Of a stretch of DNA of 43,381 bases, positions 9,390-40,920 are shown one piece after another. Position numbers and translations under genes: made by a program. The DNA comes from a virus, in IMG/VR virus record IMGVR_UViG_3300044986_000091, positions 1-43,381 of that record; one strand, 5' to 3'. The stretch's first letter is position 1, and each line of letters opens with the position of its first letter. The notes under the pieces were generated by a model. The model saw only the letters and a program-made list of their open reading frames with translations. It had not been told where the DNA came from and made no database searches.

Positions 9390-10298
9390 TCAGGACGAAC
9401 CCGGCGAACCGAACATGCCGAGCGGATCCGACCAGCCGAAGCTATAACGCTCGCGGCTCTTGTACCGGACGTTGCCGGTGTCGAAATCTCCGTCCATGCT
9501 GTTCTGGAGCGGGGTACGAACGAAGTGCTTCATGCCGTTCGGAACGTCCGTGGTCAGGAACCACGCATTCGTGTCGGTCAAGAAGTGGTTCACCGTGTAG
9601 CCACCGGGAATCGACCCCATCGCCTTGAGAGCGTTGATGTCGTTATCAGCGGTTGAAACACGGAGTTCCGTATCGAGGAGACGCTTGGCAGTGAACATCA
9701 ATGCCGGGGGCACGATGAGCTTACCGGGCTTCGCCGCGATCAGGAGTCCACGTTCGTCGGTCCAACCAGCGATCTGAATCACCGCCGCCTCAAGCGAAGT
9801 CTCGTTGAGGTCAGAGGCCGTCAGACGGTTGCTGTTGGTGCCGCCCGAAACAAGCGGGTGATCCGCCGCGAACAGAGCCTTGCCGTCGCCACCAACGTAG
9901 CTGGCCGAAAAGCCGTTGTTCAGGACAGACGCCGCCTTGACCTGCTTCGTGTACGCCATCGCTCGGGCGAGCGCCTTGGTGTATCGCTTGGACAGCGAAT
10001 CGTACAGGTTGTCTTCAACCGCCTCTTCCGTGATGGAGAAGCCGAGAGCGATGGTCTCGTGGCTGTAGCGAGCAGTCCACGCTTCCTGTGCGTTGTCATA
10101 CGCAATCGCAGCACCTTCGGCTTTCACCGGAGCGGCGCTGAAACCAGAAAGCTTGGTCTCCTCTTCGAAGGAACGCTCGGAGGTCTCAGTCTCGTAGATC
10201 TCCTTGTGCTCCTCACCATAGGTCTTGTACTCAAGGCCGAACAGGGCGTTCAAACCCGGCAGGAGTTCCTTAAGTAATTGTGCACGTGAAATAGCCAT
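9390..10298 (-). CDS. Major capsid protein (Mu gpT-like fold)
   Basis: 302 residues. The central part (ARYSHETIALGFSITEEAV, EDNLYDSLSKRYTKALARAM, KQVKAASVLNN) is typical of the Mu gpT-type major head subunit family. The middle and end have expected capsid features (LFAADHPLVSGG, PGKLIVPPALMFTAKRLLD, DGDFDTGNVRYKSRERY). The order portal-scaffold-decoration-capsid supports the call. The N-terminal residues 3-22 (ending PGLNALFGL) recur almost unchanged inside the DUF3310 protein at 24309-24875. A strong terminator follows directly. No separate protease gene is apparent. Confidence 0.85.
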   Translation of the reverse strand: MAISRAQLLKELLPGLNALFGLEYKTYGEEHKEIYETETSERSFEEETKLSGFSAAPVKAEGAAIAYDNAQEAWTARYSHETIALGFSITEEAVEDNLYDSLSKRYTKALARAMAYTKQVKAASVLNNGFSASYVGGDGKALFAADHPLVSGGTNSNRLTASDLNETSLEAAVIQIAGWTDERGLLIAAKPGKLIVPPALMFTAKRLLDTELRVSTADNDINALKAMGSIPGGYTVNHFLTDTNAWFLTTDVPNGMKHFVRTPLQNSMDGDFDTGNVRYKSRERYSFGWSDPLGMFGSPGSS

Positions 10299-13008: not shown

Positions 13009-15546
13009 TTACTTCTCCTTCGGTCTCGGCGGTGCTTGTCGCTGTGCCGCCTGATCCTTGGCTTTGGCGATCTCAACTCCAAGTCGAGTGCCTTCAAGCT
13101 CTTGTCTGTTGGACTCTTGCGCCTTGTGCTTCTCAATGTCCGCACCCAAGCGAGCCGCCTCAAGCTGCTGACGCCCAGAGATCTCGGCCTCTCGCAGTCG
13201 AAGCTCGTCGTTTTTCGCCGCCGCATCGATGATGTTTTTCTGCTCTTTGAGCCGCATCTCTTCTGCTTTGGCTTGCGCCTCCATCTGCACCTGCATCTGC
13301 TTGGTCTCGGCCTGCATCTGTTTGATCTGCAGGTCCATCTGCTGCATCTGCACAAGCGGGTCCTGCATCTGCTGCATCGCCTGCTGCATCTGCATCTCGG
13401 CCTGATCCTTCTGCAAGAGTCTTGCGGCTGCCGCTGCACTGATCTGGGCCAACTGGACCTCGATCTCCGGCGGCAAGTCGTACTCGTCGTTGTCGTCCTG
13501 CGGAAGCGGCGGGAGGCTGGCCCCCAACTGCTTCTCGATCTCGCGGCGGTACTGGAACGCCACGTGCTCCATGATGTGCGCCTGCAGCGTTGATGTGATC
13601 TGCTGCGCCATCGGGTTCTGCCCAATCATCTGAGCAATCTTCGGGTCTTGCCCAAGTGCCATATGGACTTGGATATGCGCTTCGTGATCCTGATAGATAA
13701 ACGCCTTGAGCGGCTTGCCCGTCATGGCATCCATGTTCTCCGTCACTGGATCGCGAGGCGTCTGATCATCCGGCATCGGGACAATCTTGTCGGCGTTCTT
13801 AACCCCAAGCACCTCAATCATCTGCCGATGCAGATATGGAAGGTTATAAAGCTGCGGAGCCGACTGCGCCAACTGCATCACAGCTTGGTACTGCACCACC
13901 TTCTGCGACATCGTCGCCGCGTTGGGATCTGAAACCGGAATAACATCGACGTTGTCGTAGTCCGATTTCTTTGCACTCGCCTTGCCAACCTCTGGCTCGT
14001 ACGAATACTCATCTGGCGTGTTGTCGCGAATGATTCCAGCAAGAAGCTTGAACTCCTGCTTCATCGCGTAGTAGATGCGGGCCTGTACCGCCGACATCAC
14101 CTTCAGAACGCGCTCCAGAATCGCTAGTGTGGTGCCGACCGGCGCTTGGTTCGACATGTCGCTGATTTTGAGATCAGATACCGCAGCAAATTTGCGGCCT
14201 TCTTCGACGATCTTGTCGAGCAACATGGCAAGCGTCTGGCTCGGCTCCTTGTATGGGAGCGGTAGGATGTTGTCCCGCACCGCACCGCTTGGTACGTCTA
14301 CGTCTCGCCATTCTCCCGGTGCAATCGGAGTATCGTCTCCTTTAATTCGTAGTCCTCTAGACTTGAGTCCTCCGGGGAGATTGCTGAGAGTTCCTGCATC
14401 AACAAGCTGTCTAAGCAGTGAGGTTGCAGCCTTACTATGTCCCCCGATAAGGTGAATAAGGCCGAAGTAGTAAAATCCAAAGCCCGGTATGTATCCGTAG
14501 TGGACGAAGTGCTGGCGCTTTGCTTTGAGTTCATCCTCCTCTCTCCAGTTCCGCCTAATCGAGAGGATCGTACTCGTTCCTTTTTCGATTGTGACAACGT
14601 ACGGAAGGGCAATTCCTGTTTCATTGTTTTCTTCATCGACATCTGGATACCCCGGAAGATCAATATTTACGTGCATTTCCAGAAGCTGGAATCGATTGTC
14701 CATCGTGGCAGAGAACCCCTGATCCTCCGCCTTCTGTTTCTCGACCTCATCCATCGTGCGAATCGGGTCACCCAGATCCACATCACGGTAGAACCCTGCG
14801 TACTGCAGCTTGACGAGTTCATTCTTCGTCTTCCGCATCCGGTGCGTCACACGCTCCGCCGTCTCCAAATTCGCCGCACCATAGGGCACCACGATATCTT
14901 CAGCGGGGATATAGACCGCCGTTTGGCGGTTGAGCGACGGATCAAAGTACACCTTCTTGAAGGCGTTACCCGCGAGGGCCATGCTGAGCAGCATCCGCTC
15001 GTGTTCGGGGCGGTACTCCTTCATCACCTCGGTCAGTTGATAATTCATGTCATCGGAGACACGAATCGCTGCGTCTTTCTTCTCCGGGGTTTCCTTGCCG
15101 ATAATTTTGGTCTTCACCGGACCCATCGCGGGGAAGGTCTCCATGATGGTCTCAGACTGGAACTTGACCGCTGACTCCATCAGGAGCGGATGGAACACAC
15201 CGCACGCACCCGGCCACGGCTCGGTACGCTCTTCGTACCGGATGCCAAGAATCTTCAACCCCTTGACGTAAGTGTCTAGCCAATCTTTCCGGCTTGACAA
15301 ATCCTGTTCGTAGTTCCCCAGTAATTCACTTGCCAGACTCTGCAGTTCGTTCTCGCCCATAAACTCGGCGAGGTTGGCGTCAAACTCTTCAGCGCGGGGT
15401 TCTTCTTTCTCCAACTCAATCAGCATCCCATCCACGCCGATGCGAACCGCTTCGGGGTCTACGATCTCAATCTCAATGGGCTCCATCTCCGCAGCCATCG
15501 CCGCGATGCCTTGGGGAGCCTCCATCAAACTTTTATCAACAGCCAT
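13009..15546 (-). CDS. Portal protein with Gln-rich coiled-coil C-terminus
   Basis: 845 residues, larger than typical portals. The N-terminal two thirds carry portal features: DWLDTYVKGLKILG, RTEPWPGACGVFHPLL, ERMLLSMALAGNAFKKVYFD, then the crown/stem region SNLPGGLKSRGLRIKG and VGTTLAILERVLKV. Residues about 690-845 form a long coiled coil with many QMQQ units and two copies of a RLGxxIxKxK unit. The long tail resembles portals of SU10-like and related short-tailed phages. It lies 10 bases downstream of the terminase; AGGAG precedes ATG. It would form the 12-mer DNA gate of the head. Confidence 0.88.
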   Translation of the reverse strand: MAVDKSLMEAPQGIAAMAAEMEPIEIEIVDPEAVRIGVDGMLIELEKEEPRAEEFDANLAEFMGENELQSLASELLGNYEQDLSSRKDWLDTYVKGLKILGIRYEERTEPWPGACGVFHPLLMESAVKFQSETIMETFPAMGPVKTKIIGKETPEKKDAAIRVSDDMNYQLTEVMKEYRPEHERMLLSMALAGNAFKKVYFDPSLNRQTAVYIPAEDIVVPYGAANLETAERVTHRMRKTKNELVKLQYAGFYRDVDLGDPIRTMDEVEKQKAEDQGFSATMDNRFQLLEMHVNIDLPGYPDVDEENNETGIALPYVVTIEKGTSTILSIRRNWREEDELKAKRQHFVHYGYIPGFGFYYFGLIHLIGGHSKAATSLLRQLVDAGTLSNLPGGLKSRGLRIKGDDTPIAPGEWRDVDVPSGAVRDNILPLPYKEPSQTLAMLLDKIVEEGRKFAAVSDLKISDMSNQAPVGTTLAILERVLKVMSAVQARIYYAMKQEFKLLAGIIRDNTPDEYSYEPEVGKASAKKSDYDNVDVIPVSDPNAATMSQKVVQYQAVMQLAQSAPQLYNLPYLHRQMIEVLGVKNADKIVPMPDDQTPRDPVTENMDAMTGKPLKAFIYQDHEAHIQVHMALGQDPKIAQMIGQNPMAQQITSTLQAHIMEHVAFQYRREIEKQLGASLPPLPQDDNDEYDLPPEIEVQLAQISAAAAARLLQKDQAEMQMQQAMQQMQDPLVQMQQMDLQIKQMQAETKQMQVQMEAQAKAEEMRLKEQKNIIDAAAKNDELRLREAEISGRQQLEAARLGADIEKHKAQESNRQELEGTRLGVEIAKAKDQAAQRQAPPRPKEK

Positions 15547-15556
15547 TTAAATTCTC

Positions 15557-17065
15557 CTAATAGAACCCCTGCCCGCGATGGCTCTTGAACCACCTTACGG
15601 GTTCTGGCTCATCCGATGGCAGTTTGATAAAGCCCCCCTGCCGAAAGCGCAGCAAGGCAAGTGTGGTCGCGTCTACCAAGTCGTCATTCGACCCGGACGG
15701 GAAGTCATTGCACTCCTCCACGACCTCCCATGCCCAACGCCGGTCGGGCACCCATACGATACCCGCCGAAAAGAGGTCCGTCACGGCATTTACACGCGAG
15801 ATCTTGTCTTGCCCTTTACCCGGCGTGAACTCCATGAGCGGGACGCCCATGCGCCTCATCTCCTGATACAGCGCCGCACCGTTTGACTTCTTTTCCACGA
15901 TAAAGCTGTCGGGGTTCCAGCTTTTGTACTCTTCCAGCACCAACTGTTTAAGTTCGGGGAACTCCAATCGTTGCTTGATACTATTTAACAAAATGATGTT
16001 TTTGGACTTGGTTTCTTCATTAAAGAACACGCCCCATGTTAATAAGGCGTTGTAGTCGGCACGGTTGTTTTTCTCCTGCGCCGCGTCCAAAGACATAATG
16101 ATGAACTCGCAGGCGGGGGGGTCTTCTTTCTCCCAAACCTGCCACCACTCTCGCTTGATGAGCGCACCCTCTTCGGATGTCGGCTCCTGCATGTACTGGG
16201 CCTGCCAGTACCGCACATCCATGCTGGCCTTTTTAGCAAGGAGTTCGTCGATACCCCAGAACTCAGGCCAGAGGGGTTTCTCATTGAGGATGGCGGGGAA
16301 CTCGACAATTTCCCACTCATCTGCATCCTCGTTCTTGGTCATGTGGTCGATGATTTTTCCCGTCAGATCCATCTTGGACCAACGGGTCATTACGACAATA
16401 ATCGCGCCACCCGGCATCAACCTTTGGACCGGACCCGACTGGAACCACTCCCACGCGGGCTCAAAAACATCTGAGCGCCCTTGCTTAGCTTCTTGTTCAG
16501 AATGAGGATCATCAATAATAAAAAGATCTGCACCGCGTCCAGCCAAAGCGCCGCCGACGCCGATTGCGAAATATTCTCCATTGAAGTTCGTACCCCATCG
16601 GGATGCTGACTTACTGTCTGCCTGCAACTCGACGTTTGGGAAGATGTCTCGGTAAAGATCAGATCCGACAAGGTTGCGAACCCTCCGTCCGAAATTAACT
16701 GCGAGATCCGCAGTATGGGAGGCCATAATGACCTTTTTGTGCGGATATTTGCCTAAAAACCACGCCGGAGCGAGGTAAGAAATCATTTCAGACTTACCAT
16801 GTCGCGGCGCAATGTTAACAATCACGCGTTTTTTTACCCCATTGGCTATGTCTTCGAAGATCTTCGCCAATTTCCGGTGATGTGGGCCGACTTTGTAACC
16901 GGTATAAACGTGATCAATAAAATCAAGGAACGAATCTTTGCCTAATTTCTGCGTTATTTGGGTTTGATACTGCTTTAGAAGGGTCGCCACCCGCCGTTTC
17001 TCTTTGTCCGGCAGGTTTGGCAACGCCAACTTCAACTTTTGCAGATTTTCAGCCGTAATTTGCAC
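15557..17065 (-). CDS. terL: Terminase large subunit (ATPase and nuclease)
   Basis: 502 residues. The ATPase domain has an atypical Walker A, APRHGKSE (86-93), a Walker B LFIIDDP (181-187) and a coupling motif MTRWS (226-230). The RNase H-like nuclease domain has its acidic residues in SLDAAQ (D327), VEKKSNG (E391) and SNDDLVDA (D461/D462, D465). It packages concatemeric DNA through the portal encoded next. The start is GTG with no clear ribosome site; no alternative Met is near. Overall architecture and length match phage terminases, so confidence is high. Confidence 0.93.
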   Translation of the reverse strand: MQITAENLQKLKLALPNLPDKEKRRVATLLKQYQTQITQKLGKDSFLDFIDHVYTGYKVGPHHRKLAKIFEDIANGVKKRVIVNIAPRHGKSEMISYLAPAWFLGKYPHKKVIMASHTADLAVNFGRRVRNLVGSDLYRDIFPNVELQADSKSASRWGTNFNGEYFAIGVGGALAGRGADLFIIDDPHSEQEAKQGRSDVFEPAWEWFQSGPVQRLMPGGAIIVVMTRWSKMDLTGKIIDHMTKNEDADEWEIVEFPAILNEKPLWPEFWGIDELLAKKASMDVRYWQAQYMQEPTSEEGALIKREWWQVWEKEDPPACEFIIMSLDAAQEKNNRADYNALLTWGVFFNEETKSKNIILLNSIKQRLEFPELKQLVLEEYKSWNPDSFIVEKKSNGAALYQEMRRMGVPLMEFTPGKGQDKISRVNAVTDLFSAGIVWVPDRRWAWEVVEECNDFPSGSNDDLVDATTLALLRFRQGGFIKLPSDEPEPVRWFKSHRGQGFY

Positions 17066-17813: not shown

Positions 17814-17940
17814 GGGGTTTGGCCCAAGTTGTTGGATATATAGCACGGAAATGGGGATGGAACCAAATTTAAAGGGGGGTGGGTTTTTATACAGAGGGGG
17901 TGGGGGTCAAGTTGCAACAAAATACTAAAATGAGGGAGGA

Positions 17941-18103: not shown

Positions 18104-18131
18104 TTGCAACATAAGTTACGAATCGTATACT
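18104..18131 (+). promoter_or_regulatory. Early promoter PA (TTGCAA-16-TATACT)
   Basis: A -35 box TTGCAA (18104-18109) and a -10 box TATACT (18126-18131) are 16 bases apart. The spacer (CATAAGTTACGAATCG) is nearly identical in two further promoters at 18951 and 19550. Predicted start near 18138. Strong sigma70-like promoter for the first early cassette. Confidence 0.82.
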
Positions 18132-18137
18132 GGGAAC

Positions 18138-18160
18138 CGTCGAGGCAATACCGCCCGACG
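18138..18160 (+). other. 5' mRNA hairpin of early cassette A
   Basis: CGTCG-A-GGC / AATACC / GCC-CGACG forms an 8-pair stem with one bulged A, beginning at the predicted transcription start. It is followed by the ribosome site GGAG. Likely protects the mRNA 5' end. Confidence 0.6.
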
Positions 18161-18176
18161 TAACCGGAGAAAGCAA

Positions 18177-18422
18177 ATGACGATCTACATCAACAAAGAA
18201 GTGACCATCGAAGACTACGAAGTCGAGATTGAATTGGATGAGAGTGAGGTGCTGAATGAAATCGATACCGATGTGCTGATTGAGCATGTGGTTGATCAGT
18301 GCAGTGCTTCACGCATCCTCAACAAACTAGACGCAAGCGATATCGTCGCGCATGTTGCAGGAGACAAGCAGGCACTCGCATCACTGCTTCGCGCTGTTGC
18401 GGATCAGTTGAACTATCAGTAA
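18177..18422 (+). CDS. Small acidic early protein
   Basis: 81 residues; ATG at 18177 is chosen because GGAGAAAGCAA lies directly upstream and promoter PA is 46 bases before. The longer open frame to 18003 would start ahead of the promoter. The protein is strongly acidic (about 18 Asp/Glu against 5 Lys/Arg), with IEDYEVEIELDESEVLNE then helical ASDIVAHVAGDKQALASL. First gene of the early region. Small acidic early proteins can bind or mimic nucleic-acid partners, but no such function is shown here. Confidence 0.72.
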   Translation: MTIYINKEVTIEDYEVEIELDESEVLNEIDTDVLIEHVVDQCSASRILNKLDASDIVAHVAGDKQALASLLRAVADQLNYQ

Positions 18423-18429
18423 CCACAAC

Positions 18430-18455
18430 GGGCGGGACTGCAAACCGCCCCACCT
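18430..18455 (+). terminator. Hairpin after first early gene, weak terminator or attenuator
   Basis: GGGCGG / GACTGCAAA / CCGCCC is followed by CACCTTTT. The loop nearly equals that of the terminator at 18851 (GACTTCAAA) while the stems differ. Partial read-through would feed the next two genes, which have no promoter of their own. Confidence 0.5.
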
Positions 18456-18470
18456 TTTAGGGGAAAGCAA

Positions 18471-18662
18471 ATGCATATCAATGACGTTGTATTGAGTCTG
18501 AAGTTTGACGGTTTCTGGTACACGTATCACACGATGACATCGATGCCGTACGACGACAGTCGCATGGATGCACTCTGGAAGATATGGGTTGCACGGCAGC
18601 ACATGCTGCACAAGGATGGACGCTCGATGCGTGAACGGTTTGTTGACTGGGCTCTTAACTAG
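18471..18662 (+). CDS. Small early protein, unknown function
   Basis: 63 residues with the ribosome site GGGGAAAGCAA before ATG. Aromatic-rich N-terminus (DGFWYTYHTMTSMPYDD) and helical C-terminus (MDALWKIWVARQHMLHK). Second gene of cassette A. No domain recognised. Confidence 0.7.
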   Translation: MHINDVVLSLKFDGFWYTYHTMTSMPYDDSRMDALWKIWVARQHMLHKDGRSMRERFVDWALN

Positions 18663-18672
18663 GAGAAAGCAC

Positions 18673-18843
18673 ATGAACATGTTTGACGCAGTGATGATTG
18701 CTGAGGGCGAGATCGAAGCAGACGAAGATAAGCAGTTGGAAGCATGGCAGTTCCTGCATGACTCGGGACTTGCCTACCAACTGCAAGGTTGGTTCGGACG
18801 CAGAGCACAAGAGTTGATCGCAGCAGGATTTATTCGAGAGTAA
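18673..18843 (+). CDS. Small helical early protein
   Basis: 56 residues from ATG at 18673, preceded by AGGAGAAAGC. The sequence DAVMIAEGEIEADEDKQ then WQFLHDSGLAYQLQGWFGR resembles a common small phage early family of unknown function. It starts 10 bases after the previous stop and is the last gene of cassette A. The longer frame from 18568 lacks a ribosome site. Confidence 0.75.
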   Translation: MNMFDAVMIAEGEIEADEDKQLEAWQFLHDSGLAYQLQGWFGRRAQELIAAGFIRE

Positions 18844-18850
18844 CTCCGGT

Positions 18851-18882
18851 GGAGGCAGGGACTTCAAACCTGCCTCCTTTTT
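18851..18882 (+). terminator. Rho-independent terminator of early cassette A
   Basis: GGAGGCAGG / GACTTCAAA / CCTGCCTCC, a perfect 9-pair stem, followed by TTTTT. Confidence 0.9.
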
Positions 18883-18895
18883 CTTTGGCCTTAAT

Positions 18896-18926
18896 TTTGA
18901 TACCAGTTATGCGTGTGCGCGAGAGG
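18896..18926 (+). repeat. TTTGATACCAGTTATGCG repeat, copy 1
   Basis: TTTGATACCAGTTATGCG followed by TGTGCGCGAGAGG. Copies lie at 19483 and 20292, each just after a terminator. Function unknown: operator, promoter part or recombination site. Confidence 0.75.
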
Positions 18927-18950
18927 CCCGCGTGTGAGTGCGTGGGGGAT

Positions 18951-18978
18951 TTGCAATCAAAGTTACGAATCGTATAAT
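18951..18978 (+). promoter_or_regulatory. Early promoter PB (TTGCAA-16-TATAAT)
   Basis: TTGCAA (18951-18956) and a perfect TATAAT (18973-18978), 16 bases apart, with the conserved AGTTACGAATCG just before the -10 box. Predicted start near 18985. Confidence 0.88.
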
Positions 18979-18983
18979 GTGAA

Positions 18984-19004
18984 TTGTCGGGACAAGACCG
19001 GCAA
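18984..19004 (+). other. 5' mRNA hairpin of early cassette B
   Basis: TTGTCGG / GACAAGA / CCGGCAA, 7 pairs including one G-U, starting at the predicted transcription start and followed by the ribosome site CGGAG. Confidence 0.6.
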
Positions 19005-19023
19005 CAACCAACGGAGAAAGCAT

Positions 19024-19419
19024 ATGAAGGTTATTCAAAACGCCAACAAAGTCGCACGTGAAAACGCAAAGGCAATCAATCGCGTGATCAAGCGCGATGC
19101 CAAACGTGTCGGCGATGTGGTGAAGATACTGACGGGAGCCAAGCTTAACGTCACGTACGTGTACGTGGACTCGGGCTCTTACAATATCTCGGTCGTAGGA
19201 TCGCGAGCAGATCTGGATATCATGTTCGGTGTGCTGCGCCGCGCAGGATTGACGCCACGTTCGCGACCGCAGGAAAAGGAGTCGATGTACACCACGTGGT
19301 GGAATTGGGAAGACGGTAACAACGTCTGGATCTCGTTCTCTTCCACTTCGTGCAGGCGCGTGAAGGTCGGCACAGAGATGAAGGAAGTGGACGTCTACGA
19401 GACGGTCTGCGAGGACTAA
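19024..19419 (+). CDS. Early cassette B protein, unknown function
   Basis: 131 residues from ATG at 19024, preceded by CGGAGAAAGCAT; the longer frame from 18913 starts ahead of the promoter. A basic helical N-terminus (NKVARENAKAINRVIKRDAK) is followed by a mixed alpha/beta part (NVTYVYVDSGSYNISVVG, DLDIMFGVLRRAGLTP) and Trp-rich MYTTWWNWEDGNNVW. It is the only gene between promoter PB and its own terminator. No family recognised. Confidence 0.72.
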   Translation: MKVIQNANKVARENAKAINRVIKRDAKRVGDVVKILTGAKLNVTYVYVDSGSYNISVVGSRADLDIMFGVLRRAGLTPRSRPQEKESMYTTWWNWEDGNNVWISFSSTSCRRVKVGTEMKEVDVYETVCED

Positions 19420-19435
19420 CACCGGATTCTCCGGG

Positions 19436-19469
19436 GGGTCGGGAGGCGAAAGCCTCTCGGCCCTTTTTT
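19436..19469 (+). terminator. Rho-independent terminator of early cassette B (GAAA loop)
   Basis: GGGTCGGGAGGC / GAAA / GCCTCTCGGCCC, a 12-pair stem with two G-U pairs, followed by TTTTTT. Confidence 0.9.
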
Positions 19470-19482
19470 ATTGCCCCCAGCT

Positions 19483-19500
19483 TTTGATACCAGTTATGCG
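19483..19500 (+). repeat. TTTGATACCAGTTATGCG repeat, copy 2
   Basis: An exact copy of the 18-base core, followed here by AGAGCGCGGGCG instead of the TGTGCGCGAGAGG extension of copies 1 and 3. Confidence 0.75.
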
Positions 19501-19549
19501 AGAGCGCGGGCGGGGGGCGCGTAAAAAACGGGGTGCGTGCGCGTAAGTT

Positions 19550-19577
19550 TTGCAACATAAGTTGCGATTCGTATAAT
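19550..19577 (+). promoter_or_regulatory. Early promoter PC (TTGCAA-16-TATAAT)
   Basis: TTGCAA (19550-19555) and TATAAT (19572-19577), 16 bases apart, followed by GGGAACCGT as in promoter PA. Predicted start near 19584. Confidence 0.88.
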
Positions 19578-19583
19578 GGGAAC

Positions 19584-19601
19584 CGTGGCGATGTTGCCAC
19601 G
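19584..19601 (+). other. 5' mRNA hairpin of early cassette C
   Basis: CGTGGC / GATGTT / GCCACG, a perfect 6-pair stem starting at the predicted transcription start, followed by the ribosome site GGAGGAAAGC. Confidence 0.6.
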
Positions 19602-19614
19602 TGGAGGAAAGCAT

Positions 19615-20232
19615 ATGTGGAAAGTATCAACGGCTAACGCGCTAGTCGGCGGATTGTCCGCGCCGGGTAAGATGCCTTGCCCGTCTTTTTCGATTAGTGC
19701 GCTCGCCTGTAAGACCGGCGGCCTCTTGCGGAAAATTGCCAATTCCGTGTGCGCGAAGTGCTACGCACTCAAGGGCCGCTACATGTTCGCCAATGTTCAA
19801 GCCGCGCTCGCTCGTCGCATGACGGTGCTTGCTCGGGCATTGGCAAACCCAGAGTTCCGGGCCGAGTTCGTATCGGCGATGTCGTTCTTGATATCACGGC
19901 ACAAGTGGTTTCGGTGGCACGACTCTGGTGATCTGCAATCGGCGGCGCACTTCGCTCTGATCTGCGACATTGCGCGGGCTACGCCTAACACGATGCACTG
20001 GCTACCAACCAAGGAGCCGCGCTTCGCGAAGGGTGACATCCCAAGCAATCTGATCGTGCGAGTCTCGGCACCGATGATCGATCAGGCTGCACCAAAGTAC
20101 CGGCACACTTCGACGGTGGTATCTGACAAGAGCGCCGCAACGTGTCGGGCTTTCGAGCGGCAAGGCAAGTGCGGGCCATGCCGAGCCTGCTGGGATGTCA
20201 ACGTAGCCAACGTGGCCTACTACAAACACTGA
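19615..20232 (+). CDS. GP88-family protein (mycobacteriophage gene 88-like)
   Basis: 205 residues from ATG at 19615, preceded by GGAGGAAAGCAT; an earlier ATG at 19576 falls on the -10 box. Conserved features of the GP88 family: ACKTGGLLRK, CAKCYALKGRY (46-56), FRWHDSGDLQ (99-108), HWLPTKEP (128-135) and a C-terminal Cys cluster (KCGPCRACWD, Cys 186/189/192, with C177). The conserved Cys suggest metal or Fe-S binding. The biochemical activity is not known to me. It has its own promoter and terminator, so strong early expression is likely. Confidence 0.82.
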   Translation: MWKVSTANALVGGLSAPGKMPCPSFSISALACKTGGLLRKIANSVCAKCYALKGRYMFANVQAALARRMTVLARALANPEFRAEFVSAMSFLISRHKWFRWHDSGDLQSAAHFALICDIARATPNTMHWLPTKEPRFAKGDIPSNLIVRVSAPMIDQAAPKYRHTSTVVSDKSAATCRAFERQGKCGPCRACWDVNVANVAYYKH

Positions 20233-20246
20233 CCGGTTCCTCCGGG

Positions 20247-20280
20247 GGCGGGCGGGCTTCGGCCCCCCGCCTTTTCTTTT
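20247..20280 (+). terminator. Rho-independent terminator of early cassette C (TTCG loop)
   Basis: GGCGGG-C-GGGC / TTCG / GCCCCCCGCC, 10 pairs with one bulged C, followed by TTTTCTTTT. Confidence 0.88.
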
Positions 20281-20291
20281 TGCCGACGCCC

Positions 20292-20322
20292 TTTGATACC
20301 AGTTCTGCGTGTGCGCGAGAGG
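20292..20322 (+). repeat. TTTGATACCAGTTCTGCG repeat, copy 3
   Basis: Matches copy 1 over about 30 bases, including the TGTGCGCGAGAGG extension, with one core change (A to C). It follows the cassette C terminator, but no intact promoter PA/PB/PC match comes after it; only AGTTACGATTTTGCAG at about 20363 is reminiscent. Confidence 0.7.
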
Positions 20323-20428: not shown

Positions 20429-20834
20429 GTGTCAGTTTTTGCCCCGTCTGTGTCAAAAGTGTCAGCGAAAATTTTCATTTTGACACAGGGTTTTCGCAGC
20501 ATAAGTGTTTGATTTGCTTGGTAAAAATGACGTTTGGTCAAAGATTTGTGTCAATTGTGTCAACTTTTTTCAGATAGGGGGGCCGAAAACAGGGTCAACA
20601 GGTTCGAGGGAGAGGGGACGGCAAGTGCATGACCCAACCCGTTTTGGAGCCGTCCTATCCCAAAAAACCCGACACAATTGACACAATCCCTCTTCTTCTT
20701 CTTTTTCTTAAAAATAAATAATAATAAAATCATAGACTTACACCCACTTCTTCCCACTCCACCTATCAATTTCGTGTGCTATTCCATAACTTTGATTTTT
20801 GACACAGTTGACACAACTGACACAGCCCCGACAC
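20429..20834. repeat. Iteron-like GTGTCA / TGACAC cluster with 9-bp periodicity
   Basis: GTGTCA starts at 20429, 20450, 20459, 20548 and 20557. TGACAC starts at 20481, 20679, 20800, 20809 and 20818. CGACAC variants start at 20670 and 20829. Neighbouring copies are exactly 9 bp apart in five places. Those on the left mostly read GTGTCA and those on the right TGACAC, flanking the AT-rich block. Confidence 0.8.
20691..20740. other. AT-rich block, possible DNA-unwinding element
   Basis: A pyrimidine run (TCTTCTTCTTCTTTTTC) followed by an A/T-only stretch (AAAAATAAATAATAATAAAA), much richer in A+T than the surroundings, lying between the two groups of hexamer repeats. Confidence 0.5.
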
Positions 20835-20952
20835 AGCCCCCCCAGAAATGCATAGCGTTTTGTGTACCTATCTGGGCTAGACAACCCTTTAAACGTTCTA
20901 TAACATTCCTTTCACAACGCAGCACCGTGCTGCGGCAGACAGGAGAGCAGAC

Positions 20953-30139: not shown

Positions 30140-30305
30140 TATTTTGGATTTGATCCGTGATCTTCCACGCGAGATCAACGATGCATCGACTACGACAGAG
30201 ATGAAGTTCTTAACTGTGGGTGGCGTGTTGTGGGCCTGCCACTACGAGATTAAACGACTACGGGAAGAGATAGCGGAACTAAAGAAAGGTAAAAAACGTG
30301 AGTAA
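30123..30305 (+). CDS. Small phage protein (ASTTTEMKFLTVGGVLWA family)
   Basis: 60 residues, GTG start (GAGG 8 bases upstream). The segment NDASTTTEMKFLTVGGVLWA followed by a Glu/Lys coiled coil (IKRLREEIAELKKGK) is a pattern I recognise from small phage proteins of unknown function. It overlaps the following fusion gene by eight bases. Confidence 0.65.
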   Translation: MEIEDDILDLIRDLPREINDASTTTEMKFLTVGGVLWACHYEIKRLREEIAELKKGKKRE

Positions 30306-31908
30306 CTTGGAAAGCACTTTCACTTATATCTACGAGAACAACCATTGGCACGGGACTGATAGCGTTAGTGGCCCGGGGTCGAGCATGGCTTACACGGAAA
30401 CCATCCGTAAGCAGTTACCCGAAATCTTTAAGTACTTTTCGATTAAAAAAGTATTTGACGCTCCCTGCGGTGACTTTAACTGGATGCGGCACGTGTTGCC
30501 GAATACTGATGTGGAATACGTGGGTGCAGATATCGTGCGCCCGTTGATAGAGCGTTTAAATGCAGAGCACAGAAGTGACAAGGTTTCTTTTGTGCATATG
30601 GATCTGACCAAAGATCCGTACCCCAAGGCAGACTTGATGATCTGCCGCGACTGTATCCATCATTTGTCACACAAAGACGCCAAGGCACTACTTAATAACT
30701 TCTTGAAGTCCAAGATTCCTTACCTTCTGACGACGACGTTTACAGGTACGGTCAACACCGACATCAAAACAGGGGGTTTTAGAGCCCTCGACATGTGCAA
30801 GCCGCCTTACAACTTTCCTTCCGAAGTACTTGCAAATGTAGTTGAAGAAAGGTTTAGTAACGGCGTAGTCCGAGAGGTCTCGCTTTGGAGTCGAGATCAA
30901 ATACTTAAAGCAATGAGATTTAAACAAGTGGCCCCCAAAATTTTTATAAGCATTATTTCGTACCGAGATCCTTTGCTCATGAGCACGGTCATGTCGGCAT
31001 ACAACAACGCGAGACACAAACAGGGACTAGCGTTTGGAATCGTTGATCAGGCGTATCCCGGTGAGTTCTTCAACGCCAAAGAATTAGGATACGAGTCGCA
31101 GATTCGGTATCTCAGAGTCGATCCTGAGTACGCACGGGGAGCGTGCTGGGCTCGCAACTCTGCACAGGCCATGTGGAACGGTGAGGACTACTTCATGCAG
31201 GTGGATTCCCACACGCTGTTCGACGCGGACTGGGATGAGACTTTGATCAACGCATACTTGAATCTGAAGGACTATCACGAGAAGCCTGTCATTACGGCTT
31301 ACCCTCACTCGTTTGTAGCGGTTGATGACAATATCAACAACCTGAAGAAGTCCAAGTACAACGGGCTTCTGACACTTGTTGCGGATGGCCCGGGTTCTTT
31401 CAACAAAGACATGTACGTCAGCACTCATGCTCGCGTCTTAGGCAGGAATGAACCGACCCATGCGTTCTTGCTGAGCGCCAACTGTCTTTTTACGGAAGGC
31501 ACGGTATGTGAAGAGGTGCCGTACGATCCATATCTATACTTCTCTGGCGAAGAACATTCCCTTGCACTACGGCTTTGGACAAATGGATACAACCTGTTTC
31601 ATATCCCTTCGATCCCGGTGTATCACCATTACGGTAGGAGCTATCGCACGACGGTGTGGAGTGATGAGTTCATCGAGAAGAACCGCCCGCAGAAATGGTA
31701 CAACTACGACAAACATTCCAAGTCACGTTTGTCGAAGATCGTTACAGGCGAATTAACTGGGGTGTACGGGATCGGTAACAAGCGTACGTTAGAGCAGTAC
31801 ATTGAGTGGTCAGGGATCGACTACCACAACAAGACTTTGGCGACCAAGGCGCTGACTGGCGATGGCATCTTTGATCATAACTACAAGGAGCCGTTGGTGC
31901 TGGTATGA
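30298..31908 (+). CDS. Methyltransferase - GlcNAc-type glycosyltransferase fusion protein
   Basis: 536 residues, GTG start overlapping the previous gene. Residues about 1-205 are a class I methyltransferase: KVFDAPCGDFNWM (51-63), VEYVGADIV with acidic Asp78, and LMICRDCIHHLS. Residues about 213-480 match the GlcNAc glycosyltransferase family (GT60, as in Skp1 hydroxyproline GlcNAc-transferase): IFISIISYRDPLLMSTVMSA, RGACWARNSAQAMW (about 280-293) and the metal site MQVDSHTLF (Asp302). Fusing methylation and glycosylation in one chain suggests one modified sugar product. The substrate is unknown. Confidence 0.82.
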   Translation: MSNLESTFTYIYENNHWHGTDSVSGPGSSMAYTETIRKQLPEIFKYFSIKKVFDAPCGDFNWMRHVLPNTDVEYVGADIVRPLIERLNAEHRSDKVSFVHMDLTKDPYPKADLMICRDCIHHLSHKDAKALLNNFLKSKIPYLLTTTFTGTVNTDIKTGGFRALDMCKPPYNFPSEVLANVVEERFSNGVVREVSLWSRDQILKAMRFKQVAPKIFISIISYRDPLLMSTVMSAYNNARHKQGLAFGIVDQAYPGEFFNAKELGYESQIRYLRVDPEYARGACWARNSAQAMWNGEDYFMQVDSHTLFDADWDETLINAYLNLKDYHEKPVITAYPHSFVAVDDNINNLKKSKYNGLLTLVADGPGSFNKDMYVSTHARVLGRNEPTHAFLLSANCLFTEGTVCEEVPYDPYLYFSGEEHSLALRLWTNGYNLFHIPSIPVYHHYGRSYRTTVWSDEFIEKNRPQKWYNYDKHSKSRLSKIVTGELTGVYGIGNKRTLEQYIEWSGIDYHNKTLATKALTGDGIFDHNYKEPLVLV

Positions 31909-33755
31909 GCCTGATCACGCTCGACTTTGAAACTTTTTATTCCAAGGATTTCAGCCTGTCGAAGCTGACGACCGAGGAGTACATTCGCAACAAACAGTTT
32001 GAGGTCATTGGCGCAGCATTTAAAGTTAACGACAGCCCCACGCAATGGGTGACAGGGACTCATCACGATATCCAACAACAACTCAAGAAGCTGGATTGGG
32101 CTAACTCTGCGCTGCTCTGCCATAACACATTGTTTGATGGCGCTATCTTGTCGTGGATCTTTGGTATCGAAGCAGGGATATACATGGATACGCTCTGCAT
32201 GGCGCGAGCGGTGCATGGGGTGGATGCGGGTGGGAGTTTGGCGGCGCTCGCCAAACGGTATGAACTAGGCGAAAAAGGAACCGAGGTGGTCGATGCGTTG
32301 GGTAAAAAGCGTTTGGACTTTTCTACTGAAGATCTTGATCGGTATGCTCTTTATTGCCGCAATGATGTTGATCTTACCTATGCTCTTTTTTATCGGCTTA
32401 GTGCAGGATTCCCAACATCAGAATTAGAACTGATTGACATGACGTTGCGGATGTTCATCCATCCGACGCTGAAGATAGATGACGGTCTCCTGATGGATCG
32501 GCAGGAGGAGATCAAGGCTGAGAAGTCTGAACTGCTGCGCGGTTTGATGACGGCACTCAAGGCAGAGACAGAAGAGGAAGTCCGCAAGAAGCTTTGCAGC
32601 AACAAGCAATTCGCCGAAGTGCTGAAAAGTTTTGGGATCACACCGCCGACAAAGACGAGCCCCACGACAGGTAAAGAAACATTTGCCTTCGCCAAGAATG
32701 ACGAGGGCTTTATTGAATTGATGCGCCATGAAGACCCTGTGATTCAGCAACTATGCGCGGTGCGTCTGGGTACTAAATCAACATTGGAGGAGAGCAGAAT
32801 TGAACGCTTTATTCGTATTCGTGGTAGGAATCGTGGTCGGTTACCTATCCCGCTCAAGTATTACGGCGCTCACACGGGTCGTTGGTCTGGCACGGACTCC
32901 GTCAACCTACAAAACCTTCCATCAAGAGATAAGAAAAAGAAGGCACTCAAGAATTCGGTGGTGGCTCCGGAGGGTTCTGTCATTATCAACTGCGACTCCT
33001 CGCAAATCGAAGCACGCGTCCTTGCGTGGTTGGCTGGGCAAACATCTGTAGTCGAGCAGTTCCGCAAGGGTGAGGATGTGTACAGCATCTTCGCCAGCAA
33101 GATTTACGACAGACCCATCAGCAAGAAAGATCCTGTCGAGCGGTTTGTCGGCAAGACCTGCATCCTTGGGCTGGGATATGGCACCGGGGCAATCAAACTT
33201 CGGCATACCCTGAAGACCCAGCCGCCCGGGGCGGACATCAGCGAGGATGATGCCAAGCGATACGTGCAGGTGTACCGCACCGAGAACAGCAAGATCCCAG
33301 AACTCTGGGCGGAGTGTGATCGTGCTTTAAATGCCATGATGAAAGGGGTCGAGCAGTCGTTCTCCTTGGGTCAGGGTGGAGCACTGTGGATCACCCCGGA
33401 CGGTATTGAACTACCGAACACTTTGAAAATTCGCTACGCAAACCTCCGACTCGAAGATGACAAGGTGACCTACGACTCCCGCAAAGGACCGGTTGGTATT
33501 TGGGGTGGAGCAATGGTTGAAAACGTAGTGCAGGCGTTGGCACGGATCATCGTGGGCGAGCAGATGCTCAAGATGAGGGAACGCTACCGGCCTGTGCTGA
33601 CCGTGCATGACGCTGCCGTGGTTGTGGTTCCCAAGGACGAAGTACAGGAAGCAGTTGAATTCATAACAAAAATTATGTCTACTCCACTTGATTGGTGCCC
33701 GGACTTACCTGTGGCTTGCGAAGCCAAGTGGGGGGAGTCCTATGGAGAGTGTTAA
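31905..33755 (+). CDS. polA: DNA polymerase I, family A, with 3'-5' exonuclease
   Basis: 616 residues. Exonuclease site residues: Asp7/Glu9 (LDFETFY), Asp78 (HNTLFDGA) and the YxxxD motif Tyr150/Asp154 (YCRNDVD), a DEDDy-type site. Polymerase motifs: TGRWSG (324-329), motif A CDSSQIEAR (363-371, Asp364), motif B R413-K417-L421-Y425 and motif C VHDA (567-570, Asp569). The position equivalent to E. coli Phe762 is Leu421. ATG overlaps the previous stop (ATGAG). It is the replicative polymerase of this phage, with helicase and primase genes downstream. Confidence 0.95.
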   Translation: MSLITLDFETFYSKDFSLSKLTTEEYIRNKQFEVIGAAFKVNDSPTQWVTGTHHDIQQQLKKLDWANSALLCHNTLFDGAILSWIFGIEAGIYMDTLCMARAVHGVDAGGSLAALAKRYELGEKGTEVVDALGKKRLDFSTEDLDRYALYCRNDVDLTYALFYRLSAGFPTSELELIDMTLRMFIHPTLKIDDGLLMDRQEEIKAEKSELLRGLMTALKAETEEEVRKKLCSNKQFAEVLKSFGITPPTKTSPTTGKETFAFAKNDEGFIELMRHEDPVIQQLCAVRLGTKSTLEESRIERFIRIRGRNRGRLPIPLKYYGAHTGRWSGTDSVNLQNLPSRDKKKKALKNSVVAPEGSVIINCDSSQIEARVLAWLAGQTSVVEQFRKGEDVYSIFASKIYDRPISKKDPVERFVGKTCILGLGYGTGAIKLRHTLKTQPPGADISEDDAKRYVQVYRTENSKIPELWAECDRALNAMMKGVEQSFSLGQGGALWITPDGIELPNTLKIRYANLRLEDDKVTYDSRKGPVGIWGGAMVENVVQALARIIVGEQMLKMRERYRPVLTVHDAAVVVVPKDEVQEAVEFITKIMSTPLDWCPDLPVACEAKWGESYGEC

Positions 33756-34863: not shown

Positions 34864-36447
34864 ATGCAGATTATTGACGACACAGTGTTGCAGTTCCGAC
34901 TGCCGTATCAACTCGCCGACGACGTACATTCCTGTATCGACAAGTGCGAGATTCATAAATCCCACGGGAACGACAAAGAGTTACTACTGTACTGGGGACA
35001 CGAAGAAACCCAGCGGCTGACGCATCTATGTGATGCAGCACTACCGAGCATCCTCAAGATCCCATCGCCCATGTTGCGAGATTACAAGTGGCCCGGGATT
35101 TACAAACCGTTTGAGCATCAGAAGGATACCGCTGCGTTCCTATCGATCAGACAACGCGCTTTCTGTTTCAACGAAGCGGGCACTGGCAAGACAAGCGCAG
35201 CAATTTGGGCGGCAGACTACCTGATGAACATTGGGGCAATACGCAAGGTGCTAGTCATCTGCCCAATTTCAATCATGTACTCCGCATGGCAAGCCGACGT
35301 ACTGAAGACCGCTATGCACCGCACTTGTGGCGTAGCGTACGGACCGGCAGAGCGCCGCAAGAAGATCATTCGTAGCGGTTACGACTTCACCATCATCAAC
35401 TACGACGGCACACACGTGATGCTGGAGGAACTGCAGACTGCAAACTTTGATTTGATCATCGTAGACGAAGCCAACGCTTACAAGACTGCAAGCACGCGGC
35501 GCTGGAAGACGCTGGCGAAGTTAATTCAGCCACACACATGGCTCTGGATGATGACCGGCACTCCGGCATCGCAGTCACCGGTCGATGCGTTTGGGCTAGC
35601 CCGTCTGGTCTCACCGTACCGAGTGCCAAAGTTCATGACCGCATGGCGTGACAAGGTCATGATGCAGGTCACCCGGTTTAAGTGGGTGCCGAAGCGGTCT
35701 GCACAGGGTGAGGTGTTTAATGCGCTGCAACCTGCAATACGCTTTACGAAGGCAGAGTGCCTTGATCTTCCGGATGTCACATACCAGACCCGAGAGATCC
35801 CGCTCACACCGCAGGTCATCGCGTACTACAAACGATTGAAGAATCAAATGCTGGTCGAAGCAGCGGGCGAACAAATTACCGCAGTCAATGCAGCAGCTTC
35901 ATTGACTAAGCTTCTGCAGTTGTCAGGCGGCGCGGTCTACACCGATACCCGCGAAGTCGTCGAGTTCGACATCTCTCCACGTTTAAATGCACTGGAAGAA
36001 GTGCTTGATGAAACTGTAAATAAAGTTGTAGTATTCGTTTCGTACACGCATACTATCGACGTAGTCTCCAATCACTTAACGGAAAAGGGTTACACCAACG
36101 AAATCATCCAAGGCAGCGTACCAGCGGCAAGGCGCTCAGAGATCATTCAAAGATTTCAGACGCAACAACACCCACGAGTGTTGATCATTCAACCGCAAGC
36201 TGCATCGCATGGTGTTACGTTGACTGCCGCAGATACCGTAGTGTTTTGGTCACCCGTGATGAGCGTTGAGACGTATCTGCAGTGCATCGCTCGCATTGAC
36301 CGAGTGGGGCAGAAGAACCGAATGACTGTGGTTCATCTGCAAGGATCGGAAGTCGAGAAGAAGATGTATCAGATGCTGCAAGGCAAAGTAGATAACCACC
36401 AATTGTTGGTGGACATGTACAAACAGGAGTTGGAAAGCAATGACTAA
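34864..36447 (+). CDS. SNF2-type superfamily 2 helicase
   Basis: 527 residues. Walker A NEAGTGKTS (103-111), Walker B variant VDEAN (200-204), motif III TGTPAS (231-236), and C-terminal motifs VVVFVSYTHT, IIQGSVP, IIQPQAASHGVTLTAA and CIARIDRVGQ (about 474-483). The IxRIDRxGQ ending is typical of SNF2-like helicases. Such proteins in phages are replication or recombination helicases/translocases. It overlaps the next gene by eight bases. The Asp-Glu-Ala-Asn box differs from the usual DEAH/DEAD. Confidence 0.88.
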   Translation: MQIIDDTVLQFRLPYQLADDVHSCIDKCEIHKSHGNDKELLLYWGHEETQRLTHLCDAALPSILKIPSPMLRDYKWPGIYKPFEHQKDTAAFLSIRQRAFCFNEAGTGKTSAAIWAADYLMNIGAIRKVLVICPISIMYSAWQADVLKTAMHRTCGVAYGPAERRKKIIRSGYDFTIINYDGTHVMLEELQTANFDLIIVDEANAYKTASTRRWKTLAKLIQPHTWLWMMTGTPASQSPVDAFGLARLVSPYRVPKFMTAWRDKVMMQVTRFKWVPKRSAQGEVFNALQPAIRFTKAECLDLPDVTYQTREIPLTPQVIAYYKRLKNQMLVEAAGEQITAVNAAASLTKLLQLSGGAVYTDTREVVEFDISPRLNALEEVLDETVNKVVVFVSYTHTIDVVSNHLTEKGYTNEIIQGSVPAARRSEIIQRFQTQQHPRVLIIQPQAASHGVTLTAADTVVFWSPVMSVETYLQCIARIDRVGQKNRMTVVHLQGSEVEKKMYQMLQGKVDNHQLLVDMYKQELESND

Positions 36448-38070: not shown

Positions 38071-40920
38071 ATGAGAAAACAATTTTACGAAAAAGCATTA
38101 CCAACGCAGGGCATTTACTGCGTTGCGATGATTCACGCAGAGACCAAACGAACGCGACATGAGTACGTCTATAACGTAGATGAGTTGGAAGAGGTACTGG
38201 GTAAGTACTCAAGTCAGACTGATTACAACGTCTACGTTGCACCGTGTTCGTTTCAGGACGAGAGCCGCAATTCCAACAATGCCGCTTTTGGTCGCTCGTT
38301 TTTCATAGACCTTGATGTCAATCACGGTAGCGTCTGCTACACGAGTAAAGAAGAAGCTTTAAACGCACTTGAGGAATTCGTTGCCGAGCATGACCTGCCT
38401 CCCCCTGTCCGCATCGATTCGGGCGGCGGTATACAGGCGTACTGGCTTTTCGAGGACGACGTAGAAGCCGAGGAGTGGAAGCTTGTCGCAGCACTGTTCA
38501 AACAGTTCTGCATGGACAAGGGACTGCTGATCGACCCGGCTGTGACCGCTGATGCTGCGCGGATCATGCGCTGTCCGGAGACTATGAACCTTCGGGTGCA
38601 GACGCCATCCAAGTTTATTGACAACGACTTCAATCAGTACGACTTCAGTGCATTTAAATCTTTCTTAGGCGGCGAGGAAGTGCCGCAGACCATCGAGCAG
38701 ATCAAGGTCAAGACTCGTGGTATGGATGAAGAGACGAAGGCCATCGCCCGTCTCGACAACTTTGAAGACTCGTTCGCTGTGCTGGCTGAGAAGAGCCTCT
38801 CTGGCGACGGGTGCAACCAGATCAAATACGCCATCGAGAACCGCGAGACCCTGCCATACGGTCTTTGGTTCGGGGCTTTGTCTGTCGCGCAGCGGTGCGT
38901 GGATCGAGATGCTGCCATCAAGGCCGTCTCTGAAGATCACCCGGACTATACGTTTGAAAAGGCAAGCCTCAAAGCACAAGAGACGACTAAGGCGAGTGGC
39001 CCGTGGACTTGCACTAAGTTCGGGGAAGAGAACCCGGACGGCTGCGAGGGTTGCCCATTCAAAGGCAAGATCACTTCACCGATTGCCTTGGCGCGGAAGA
39101 TCCGGATGCCGACAGAGGCGACGGCTCCGCTGCCTGAACTTGACGACACGGTGTGGGGAGACGCTGACAATCAGGATTTGCTGATCTTTCCTGAGTACCT
39201 TGAGCCGTTTAGCCGCAGCGCCCGGGGCAGCATCATGTACACCCCACCGGCTACCGTCGATAAGACGGGCAAGGTGACGCAACCGCTTCCGATAGAGTTG
39301 TTAACTCGCCCTGTGTACCCATACAAGCGGATGTTCAGTCCGCACGACGGCGAGTGCCTGATGATTCGCACGGTGATGCCGTTTGATGGGCATCGAGAAT
39401 TTATGTTGCCGGTGGATCACGTGTACTCATCGGAGCACTTAACGAAGGCGGTGGTGCAGAGCGGGGCGACGTTCGACCCTGACAAGACCAAGTTCGTCAT
39501 GAAGTATTTCATTCGCTGGGCAGAGTACCTGTCGAGCATCGGGAGAGCAGAACAGATGCGTATGCAGATGGGATGGACGGAAGACCGTGACGGATTCGTC
39601 ATTGGTAACACCGAGATCAAGTCTAATGGTGAAATCATACGTTCAGCCGCATCGCCGCTGGTGCGTAATGTGGCACAGCATTTAAAGCCTGTTGGTGACT
39701 ACGCAACGTGGAAGTGGGCAACAACGATCTTTGACCGCCCGGGCTTTGAGATGCAAGCGTTCGGAATGCTGACCGGGTTCGGCTCTCCGCTTATGAGCCT
39801 GACGACCGTAGCAGGTGCCTCCCTTTGTTTCTTGAGCGCCCACTCTGGCACCGGTAAAACGGGTTCGCTCTACGCCTCTATCAGCATCTGGGGACAGCCC
39901 AAAGAGCTAAGTCTTGTGGATCAGGGCGCGACCCAGAATGGTTTTATCGGGCGATATCTGAACTTGAAAAACCTGCCGCTGGGTATCGATGAAGCCTCAA
40001 ACGCCAAGCCAGAGGATCTTGCCAAGTTGATCCATGCCGTGTCACACGGCAAAGCCAAGATCCGTATGCAGTCTTCGGTTAACGCTGAACGTGAGCACGA
40101 GTCTTCGGCGTCGATGATTACGTTCTTCACCAGCAACCAGTCGATCTACAACAAGCTGGAGACTTTGAAGGGGAGTCCTGACGGTGAGATGGCTCGCTTG
40201 GTTGAGTTTAGACTGAAGCCACCAGATTGGTTCAATGACGATATTGGTATCGAGTACTTCGATAAGTTCCGGTTCAACTATGGACATGCCGGGATTGAGT
40301 TCATTCAGCACTACTTCAAGCGGGGCGAGCCTTACGTCAAGGCGCTCGTAGACAAGTGGTACAAACGATTCAACGAAGTGGTCGGCAACGAAACCGGCTA
40401 TCGGTTCTATCGCAACCTCGTGGCAGCGACGTTTGCTGGCGGTGAGTTAGCTATCGAGGCTGGGATCATTCAACTCGATATTGAGCGCGTATTCAGAGCC
40501 ATCATTTTAGAGATCATTCAATTGAAAGAAGACACGGTCAAACTCAACAACACGGATTACCCGGCGCTTATCACCGAGTTCTTCTTGGATCACTGGGCTG
40601 GTGTGCTGGTCTTGGAAGAGCCCGGTAAAGTTATTCAAGCACCCAGCTTAGGTAAGCCTGTTGTGGCTCGTAGCGAGATCTACAACAGCACGCACTACAT
40701 ATCCAAGTCAGCATTCAAGAAACTTTGCTTGGCCCCCAAGCAGATCAGCAGCAAAGAGTTTGAAGAAGCCATGAAGCCCCACGGGCTGGTGGTGGACCGC
40801 GAACGCATCACGAACAATTCAGGTTGGGGCAAGGGCCTGTACAACAACGCGATTGGCGTTTATGTGATCCGCGCCAAACTGCCGGAAGAGCTACTGAAGA
40901 AAGATGAATCGAATCCCTGA
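38071..40920 (+). CDS. Primase-helicase: PrimPol-like domain fused to SF3/DUF927-type ATPase
   Basis: 949 residues. The N-terminal primase part has FFIDLDV (77-83), RIDSGGGIQAYW (114-125) and LIDPAVTADAARIMRCPE (153-170), the pattern of archaeo-eukaryotic-type primases. A Cys pair with spacing CTKF...DGCEGCPF (about 325-340) may bind zinc. The C-terminal ATPase has Walker A HSGTGKT (591-597) and Walker B LGIDEAS (637-643), then TFFTSNQS, in the style of DUF927 helicases. No obvious ribosome site precedes ATG at 38071. Probably primes and unwinds for the family A polymerase. Confidence 0.88.
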   Translation: MRKQFYEKALPTQGIYCVAMIHAETKRTRHEYVYNVDELEEVLGKYSSQTDYNVYVAPCSFQDESRNSNNAAFGRSFFIDLDVNHGSVCYTSKEEALNALEEFVAEHDLPPPVRIDSGGGIQAYWLFEDDVEAEEWKLVAALFKQFCMDKGLLIDPAVTADAARIMRCPETMNLRVQTPSKFIDNDFNQYDFSAFKSFLGGEEVPQTIEQIKVKTRGMDEETKAIARLDNFEDSFAVLAEKSLSGDGCNQIKYAIENRETLPYGLWFGALSVAQRCVDRDAAIKAVSEDHPDYTFEKASLKAQETTKASGPWTCTKFGEENPDGCEGCPFKGKITSPIALARKIRMPTEATAPLPELDDTVWGDADNQDLLIFPEYLEPFSRSARGSIMYTPPATVDKTGKVTQPLPIELLTRPVYPYKRMFSPHDGECLMIRTVMPFDGHREFMLPVDHVYSSEHLTKAVVQSGATFDPDKTKFVMKYFIRWAEYLSSIGRAEQMRMQMGWTEDRDGFVIGNTEIKSNGEIIRSAASPLVRNVAQHLKPVGDYATWKWATTIFDRPGFEMQAFGMLTGFGSPLMSLTTVAGASLCFLSAHSGTGKTGSLYASISIWGQPKELSLVDQGATQNGFIGRYLNLKNLPLGIDEASNAKPEDLAKLIHAVSHGKAKIRMQSSVNAEREHESSASMITFFTSNQSIYNKLETLKGSPDGEMARLVEFRLKPPDWFNDDIGIEYFDKFRFNYGHAGIEFIQHYFKRGEPYVKALVDKWYKRFNEVVGNETGYRFYRNLVAATFAGGELAIEAGIIQLDIERVFRAIILEIIQLKEDTVKLNNTDYPALITEFFLDHWAGVLVLEEPGKVIQAPSLGKPVVARSEIYNSTHYISKSAFKKLCLAPKQISSKEFEEAMKPHGLVVDRERITNNSGWGKGLYNNAIGVYVIRAKLPEELLKKDESNP

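Follow-up and report, generated by a model that had tools for sequence, protein, structure and literature searches.

Organization of the Cassette Array

The window analyzed here is the whole of IMG/VR virus record IMGVR_UViG_3300044986_000091 (43,381 bases), which comes from an uncultured tailed phage. Between positions 18104 and 20280, it contains three consecutive gene cassettes, each consisting of a class I promoter, a stem-loop at the predicted start of the transcript, a ribosome site, one or more small cargo genes, and a terminator. Cassette 1 carries F1 (18177..18422; 81 amino acids, weak match to phrog_11519), F3 (18471..18662; 63 amino acids), and F7 (18673..18843; 56 amino acids, DUF7417, PF24192). 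Cassette 2 carries F5 (19024..19419; 131 amino acids), and cassette 3 carries F2 (19615..20232; 205 amino acids, GP88 family, PF17338). These genes and all the regulatory elements described below lie on the plus strand unless stated otherwise.

A 29-base promoter pattern, TTGCAANNNAAGTTNCGNWTCGTATANTG, searched on both strands of the window with up to three mismatches, matched exactly three plus-strand sites, at 18104, 18951, and 19550; no match was expected in shuffled sequence. The sites correspond to promoters P1 (18104..18131, TTGCAA-16-TATACT), P2 (18951..18978, TTGCAA-16-TATAAT), and P3 (19550..19577, TTGCAA-16-TATAAT), so that the three similar promoters with a 16-base spacer proposed in an earlier sequence-only reading of this DNA were recovered. 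A near-palindrome in the spacer, TACGAwTCGTA, overlaps the -10 box at all three promoters (the P1 copy, TACGAATCGTA, occupies 18117-18127) and occurs nowhere else in the window. Early expression of the cassettes is plausible, judging from their position and the host-type promoters.

Ribosome sites of the anticipated GGAG(G/A)AAGCA type were found in each cassette: GGAGAAAGCA at 18166..18175 and at 19013, and GGAGGAAAGCA at 19603-19613. The stabilized terminator loops reported earlier were present in part, namely GAAA in cassette 2 (19433..19466) and TTCG in cassette 3 (about 20248..20270, read by eye); the terminator of cassette 1 (18851..18877) has a 9-pair stem with the 9-base loop GACTTCAAA instead of a tetraloop and is followed by TTTTTCTTT.

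Two further repeated elements had been overlooked. The first is an 18-base box, TTTGATACCAGTTATGCG, located behind every cassette terminator of the window (18896..18913, 19483..19500, and 20292..20309; 0.02 copies expected). The box also follows terminators in related phages, including the last terminator, which has no class I promoter downstream. Since the third copy in the window likewise has no class I promoter behind it, the box marks the end of a cassette rather than the next promoter. The second element is an intercistronic stem-loop, which together with a ribosome site separates most genes inside the cassettes in the order stop codon, stem-loop, short T-run, and GGAGAAAGCA-ATG. The copy GGGCGG(GACTGCAAA)CCGCCC at 18430..18450, for example, is followed by a ribosome site at 18460. 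The 9-base loop is near-constant (GACYKCMMA in most copies), the stems covary, and the family also includes the terminator of cassette 1, the intercistronic members having shorter T-runs. In 17 copies, all six inner pairs were kept, and four were changed on both sides; the pairing percentage of these copies is circular, as they were picked for having the stem. The changes on both sides show that the predicted intercistronic stems diverged yet stayed paired.

Stem-Loops at the Predicted Transcript Starts

The three cassettes open with different hairpins, designated types A, B, and C. The type A hairpin of P1 (18138..18160, CGTCG(A)GGC-AATACC-GCCCGACG) has eight pairs with one bulged A and a folding energy of -12.7 kcal/mol. 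Type B at P2 (18984..19004, TTGTCGG-GACAAGA-CCGGCAA; -9.2 kcal/mol) and type C at P3 (19584..19601, CGTGGCG-ATGT-TGCCACG; -10.7 kcal/mol) have seven pairs each, including one G-U pair. All three stems begin 6-7 bases past the -10 hexamer, which is the usual +1 position, and end 1-8 bases before GGAG. Thus, a stem stands at or near the predicted 5' end, and the ribosome site is left unpaired. The stems are mutually unrelated in sequence, in agreement with the earlier proposal that a hairpin at +1 is kept as a structure while its sequence changes. A search with Rfam covariance models gave a single chance-level match on the other strand and assigned the hairpins to no known RNA family.

Relatives covering the region were gathered from IMG/VR by the promoter pattern, the GP88-family gene, and the terminase. 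Counting the window and these relatives together, a stem of at least six pairs (-9 to -15 kcal/mol), located +6 to +9 from the -10 box, is present at 18 of the 20 distinct class I promoters; no comparable stem was found where the same pattern core matched elsewhere. The same three unrelated types recur, A (CGTCGAGGC...), B (TTGTCGG...), and C (CGTGGCG...), and they are exchanged in front of related genes. The GP88-family gene is preceded by type C in the window, L003, L073, and L082, by type A in L006, L118, and L209, and by a diverged promoter followed by CGGCCACGGTGGCCG in L009/L010, whose promoters are of another sequence (TTGAC...TTCTAAT) and are followed by CGGCCA-CGG-TGGCCG. In front of F5, type B stands in the window and in L003, and type A in L118, L002, L005, and L209. 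The claim of a different hairpin for each cassette therefore holds within the window and not across relatives, where type A is reused before several different genes with nearly identical leaders.

In more distant relatives, whose terminases are still 82-90% identical, the promoters differ in sequence. A promoter with a stem of at least six pairs at +4 to +14 was detected in 7 of 38 loci, compared with a mean of 0.48 and a maximum of 2 in shuffles and with none on the reverse strand. A generic promoter scan of these genomes yielded only seven promoter-like control sites, too few to decide, and the shuffle test was used instead. The first leaders of L208, L210, L267, and L269 contain a second hairpin of the TCCTGACNNNGTCAGGA type, or a near variant, behind the 5' stem.

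Two further promoters served as internal controls. P4, the promoter of the replication genes (20878..20906, class II, TAGACA-17-TAACAT with TTTAAA in the spacer), and its 5' stem-loop (20918..20934, CGCAGCA-CCG-TGCTGCG) had both escaped the sequence-only reading. The P4 stem is kept with compensating changes as GCAGCACCGTGCTGC in the window, GCAGTCACGGTGACTGC in L004/L118, and GCAGCGAGGTGCTGC in L010. P5 (22362..22390, TTGACA-17-CATACT) has no strong 5' hairpin, and no strong stem was found at similar promoters of four relatives (L010, L073, L082, and L160). The presence of a stem at P4 and its absence at P5 indicate that stems go with particular promoters and do not simply result from base composition.

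Exchange of Cargo Genes among Relatives

A search of related IMG/VR genomes for the promoter-hairpin-gene-terminator unit with other cargo, suggested in the earlier reading, was successful. With slashes separating cassettes, the order is F1-F3-F7/F5/GP88 in the window, F1-F9-F6-F4/F5/GP88 in L003, F14-F15-F3-F6-F4/F1-F8/GP88 in L073, F8-F1-F6-F3-F4/GP88 plus others in L010, and F5-F13-F4/GP88 in L209. F1 is the first gene of cassette 1 in the window, L003, and L118, the first of cassette 2 in L073 and L082, and the second of cassette 1 in L002 and L010. F5 is the sole gene of cassette 2 in the window and L003 and the first gene of cassette 1 in L209 and L002. The separately terminated cassettes thus form a modular unit that carries different genes in different relatives, as had been supposed. 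Nucleotide identity between the window and L118 changes in steps at the joints, from 69% in F1 to 93-96% from F3 through the box to P2, 72-73% in P2 and F5, and 81% in the GP88-family gene. Such steps are what exchange at the repeated joints would predict.

In searches of Pfam, PHROGs, and NCBIfam, the cargo proteins matched either nothing or families whose function is unknown (PF17338 GP88 and PF24192 DUF7417). The structural model of the 131-residue F5 protein (predicted local distance difference test score of 78) matched nucleotidyltransferase-type folds with Z scores of 8-9 and complex I subunits equally well; because of this ambiguity, no function is claimed for it. The earlier designation of the cargo as host-takeover genes found no support, since no cargo protein has a known function.

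Interpretation of the 5' Stem-Loops

The data are probably best explained by a modular early region whose regulatory joints are prone to recombination and whose 5' stems most likely protect the start of the mRNA from decay. A strong host-type promoter would read each cassette; the transcript would open with a short stem-loop, with the ribosome site within about ten bases, and would end at an intrinsic terminator backed by the fixed box. As the joints are nearly identical, the genes lying between them could be exchanged by homologous recombination. By analogy with 5' hairpins of Escherichia coli, a base-paired 5' end would hinder conversion by RppH and entry of RNase E.

Several observations weigh against this explanation. 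Each hairpin taken alone is modest against dinucleotide shuffles (z of -3.0, -2.2, and -1.6 for types A, B, and C), so the argument depends on the fixed position and on the 18 of 20 class I promoters with a stem rather than on single z-scores. Covariation within type A is no better than in shuffles, the stem hardly varying, and the case therefore relies on the occurrence of unrelated stems at one position. At the two exceptions among the 20, the orthologous F1 (middle) promoters of L042/L082, the promoter is kept and the stem has decayed to five displaced pairs, which tells against the mRNA stability advanced in the sequence-only reading and otherwise argued from analogy. Several distant relatives have leaders without such a 5' stem, and the trait is accordingly common and not universal. 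Moreover, the transcript starts at the stems are predicted positions, and the RppH/RNase E type of decay is drawn from E. coli and may not be that of the host.

The main rival explanation, which we consider unlikely but take seriously, is that the stem chiefly tunes translation by keeping a short leader open beside the ribosome site. The 1-8 base distance between the stem and GGAG fits this possibility, as does the similar placement of intercistronic stems before internal ribosome sites; however, P5-type promoters share the GGAG...ATG layout without a strong stem.

A function of the inverted repeats at +1 as DNA operators, through which a phage repressor or activator would shut down the early promoters, the RNA fold being incidental, is distinctly improbable. 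The region from +1 to +25 is a classical operator position, but the downstream repeats differ within one genome under identical promoters, and one protein would not bind them all; in addition, the G-U pairs and the bulge retain RNA pairing while spoiling DNA symmetry. The same repeat at each promoter, as an operator would have it, is instead provided by TACGAwTCGTA. Its conservation at all three promoters and restriction to them make some DNA-binding control plausible there.

Slightly less probable still is that the 5' stem-loop would act like a put or qut site, as a signal for antitermination or read-through that carries transcription past the intercistronic stem-loops. These resemble the terminator of cassette 1, so read-through within cassettes would be needed. 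Against this, the single-gene cassettes 2 and 3 carry the hairpin with nothing to read through, stems and loops vary freely between types, and no Rfam family was matched. Both the operator and the antitermination explanations fit less well because the stems differ within one genome and single-gene cassettes carry a stem. The hairpins are very improbable as functionless remnants of duplicated leaders: recent copying would give near-identical type A leaders, but stems of unrelated sequence recur at one position, both in a single genome and across distant relatives, and the P4 stem has compensating changes.

Beyond the modular region with mRNA-protecting stems, it may be speculated, at low probability, that the box, the intercistronic stem-loops, and the promoter-hairpin joints constitute a dedicated exchange and expression platform, in which a phage or host protein would recognize the loop or the box and drive single-gene exchange or control how far transcription reaches within a cassette.

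Genome Context

The left half of the window encodes, on the minus strand, the major head protein (9390-10298), the portal (13009-15546), and the large terminase (15557-17065). The right half has its genes on the plus strand, including those for a PolA-type polymerase (31905-33755), a helicase (34864-36447), and a primase-like protein (38071-40920). The cassette array is situated where rightward transcription starts, immediately right of the point of divergence. A sequence, CCAAATTTAAAG, at 17850-17880, upstream of a small-terminase candidate, is conserved in relatives and is a possible late-promoter element of the minus strand. A 536-residue protein encoded at 30298-31908 combines a methyltransferase-like part with a glycosyltransferase-like part, according to PHROG matches.

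Class II promoters with TTTAAA in the spacer (20878 and 22362) are common to the window and relatives. At 20440-20850, TGTCA/TGACA words (GACACAATTGACACAA) in direct and inverted orientation form an array, replaced at the same place by CCGCACAA/TTGTGCGG words in L118/L006 and by TTGTGCCGG words in L073. Because the position is the same and the word differs among relatives, the array looks like a replication origin or an initiator-binding region with changed specificity.

No DNA-level match to named phages was obtained by BLASTN with the cassette region and the right half of the window. By terminase, the phage comes closest to Phage DSL-LC04 and to Pelagibacter phage HTVC027P with its relatives, at about 48-52% identity, and terminase relatives are encoded on at least 600 IMG/VR stretches. 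In bacterial genomes, the terminase was found on two contigs in metagenome bins, which do not settle the host assignment.

Comparison with Known Systems

The closest counterpart of the array is the mobile promoter early stem-loop (PeSL) cassette of T4-type phages (Arbiol et al. 2010; Comeau et al. 2014), as outlined in PMC4503421. In both, early promoters and terminator stem-loops lie between small non-core genes and form joints for modular shuffling: the window has three terminator-box-promoter joints or array ends, similar ones occur in relatives, and the cargo orders and stepwise identity reveal shuffled genes between them. Unlike T4-type phages, the present phage has a terminase nearest to those of DSL-LC04 and HTVC027P, a PolA-type polymerase, a weakly SU10-like portal, and a 43-kb record, and its terminase, PolA, and portal matches show no relation to T4. 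Its cassettes also add the 5' mRNA stem-loop, intercistronic stem-loops whose loop is nearly constant, and the box behind the terminator.

Stabilizing stem-loops at the 5' terminus are known from ompA and the T7 gene 10 leader. In E. coli bla/papA constructs, 5' hairpins stabilize bla mRNA and impede RppH (PMC3997798), and the T4 gene 32 mRNA is stabilized by a 5' hairpin (PMC8948821). The stems described here are similarly located at or a few bases from the predicted 5' end and leave the ribosome site downstream of them free; they differ in being an exchangeable part of a repeated cassette, with unrelated sequences across a phage lineage, and their stabilizing effect would follow by analogy.

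The start-associated sequences (SAS/ESAS) of cluster K mycobacteriophages (PMC3203893) are likewise repeated at starts of non-structural genes, about half having an inverted repeat just upstream. These repeats share their sequence (13-bp GGGATAGGAGCCC and 17-bp common inverted repeats), and the parts of that account consulted describe no attached promoter/terminator unit, whereas the ribosome sites of the window are GGAGAAAGCA-like and its stems differ from one another and go with promoter starts. Stable intergenic RNA hairpins with a conserved loop also occur as the CUUCGG hairpins of T4, phiEco32-like, and other phages (PMC8948821); the intercistronic loop here has 9 bases and is not UUCG, with GAAA and UUCG confined to terminators.

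Promoter-terminator shuffling is thus extended beyond T4-type phages to uncultured phages of an unrelated, very common group, with an exchangeable 5' RNA stem as an added part of the shuffling unit. The cassettes provide a compact natural set for studying the gain, loss, and expression of short early phage genes.

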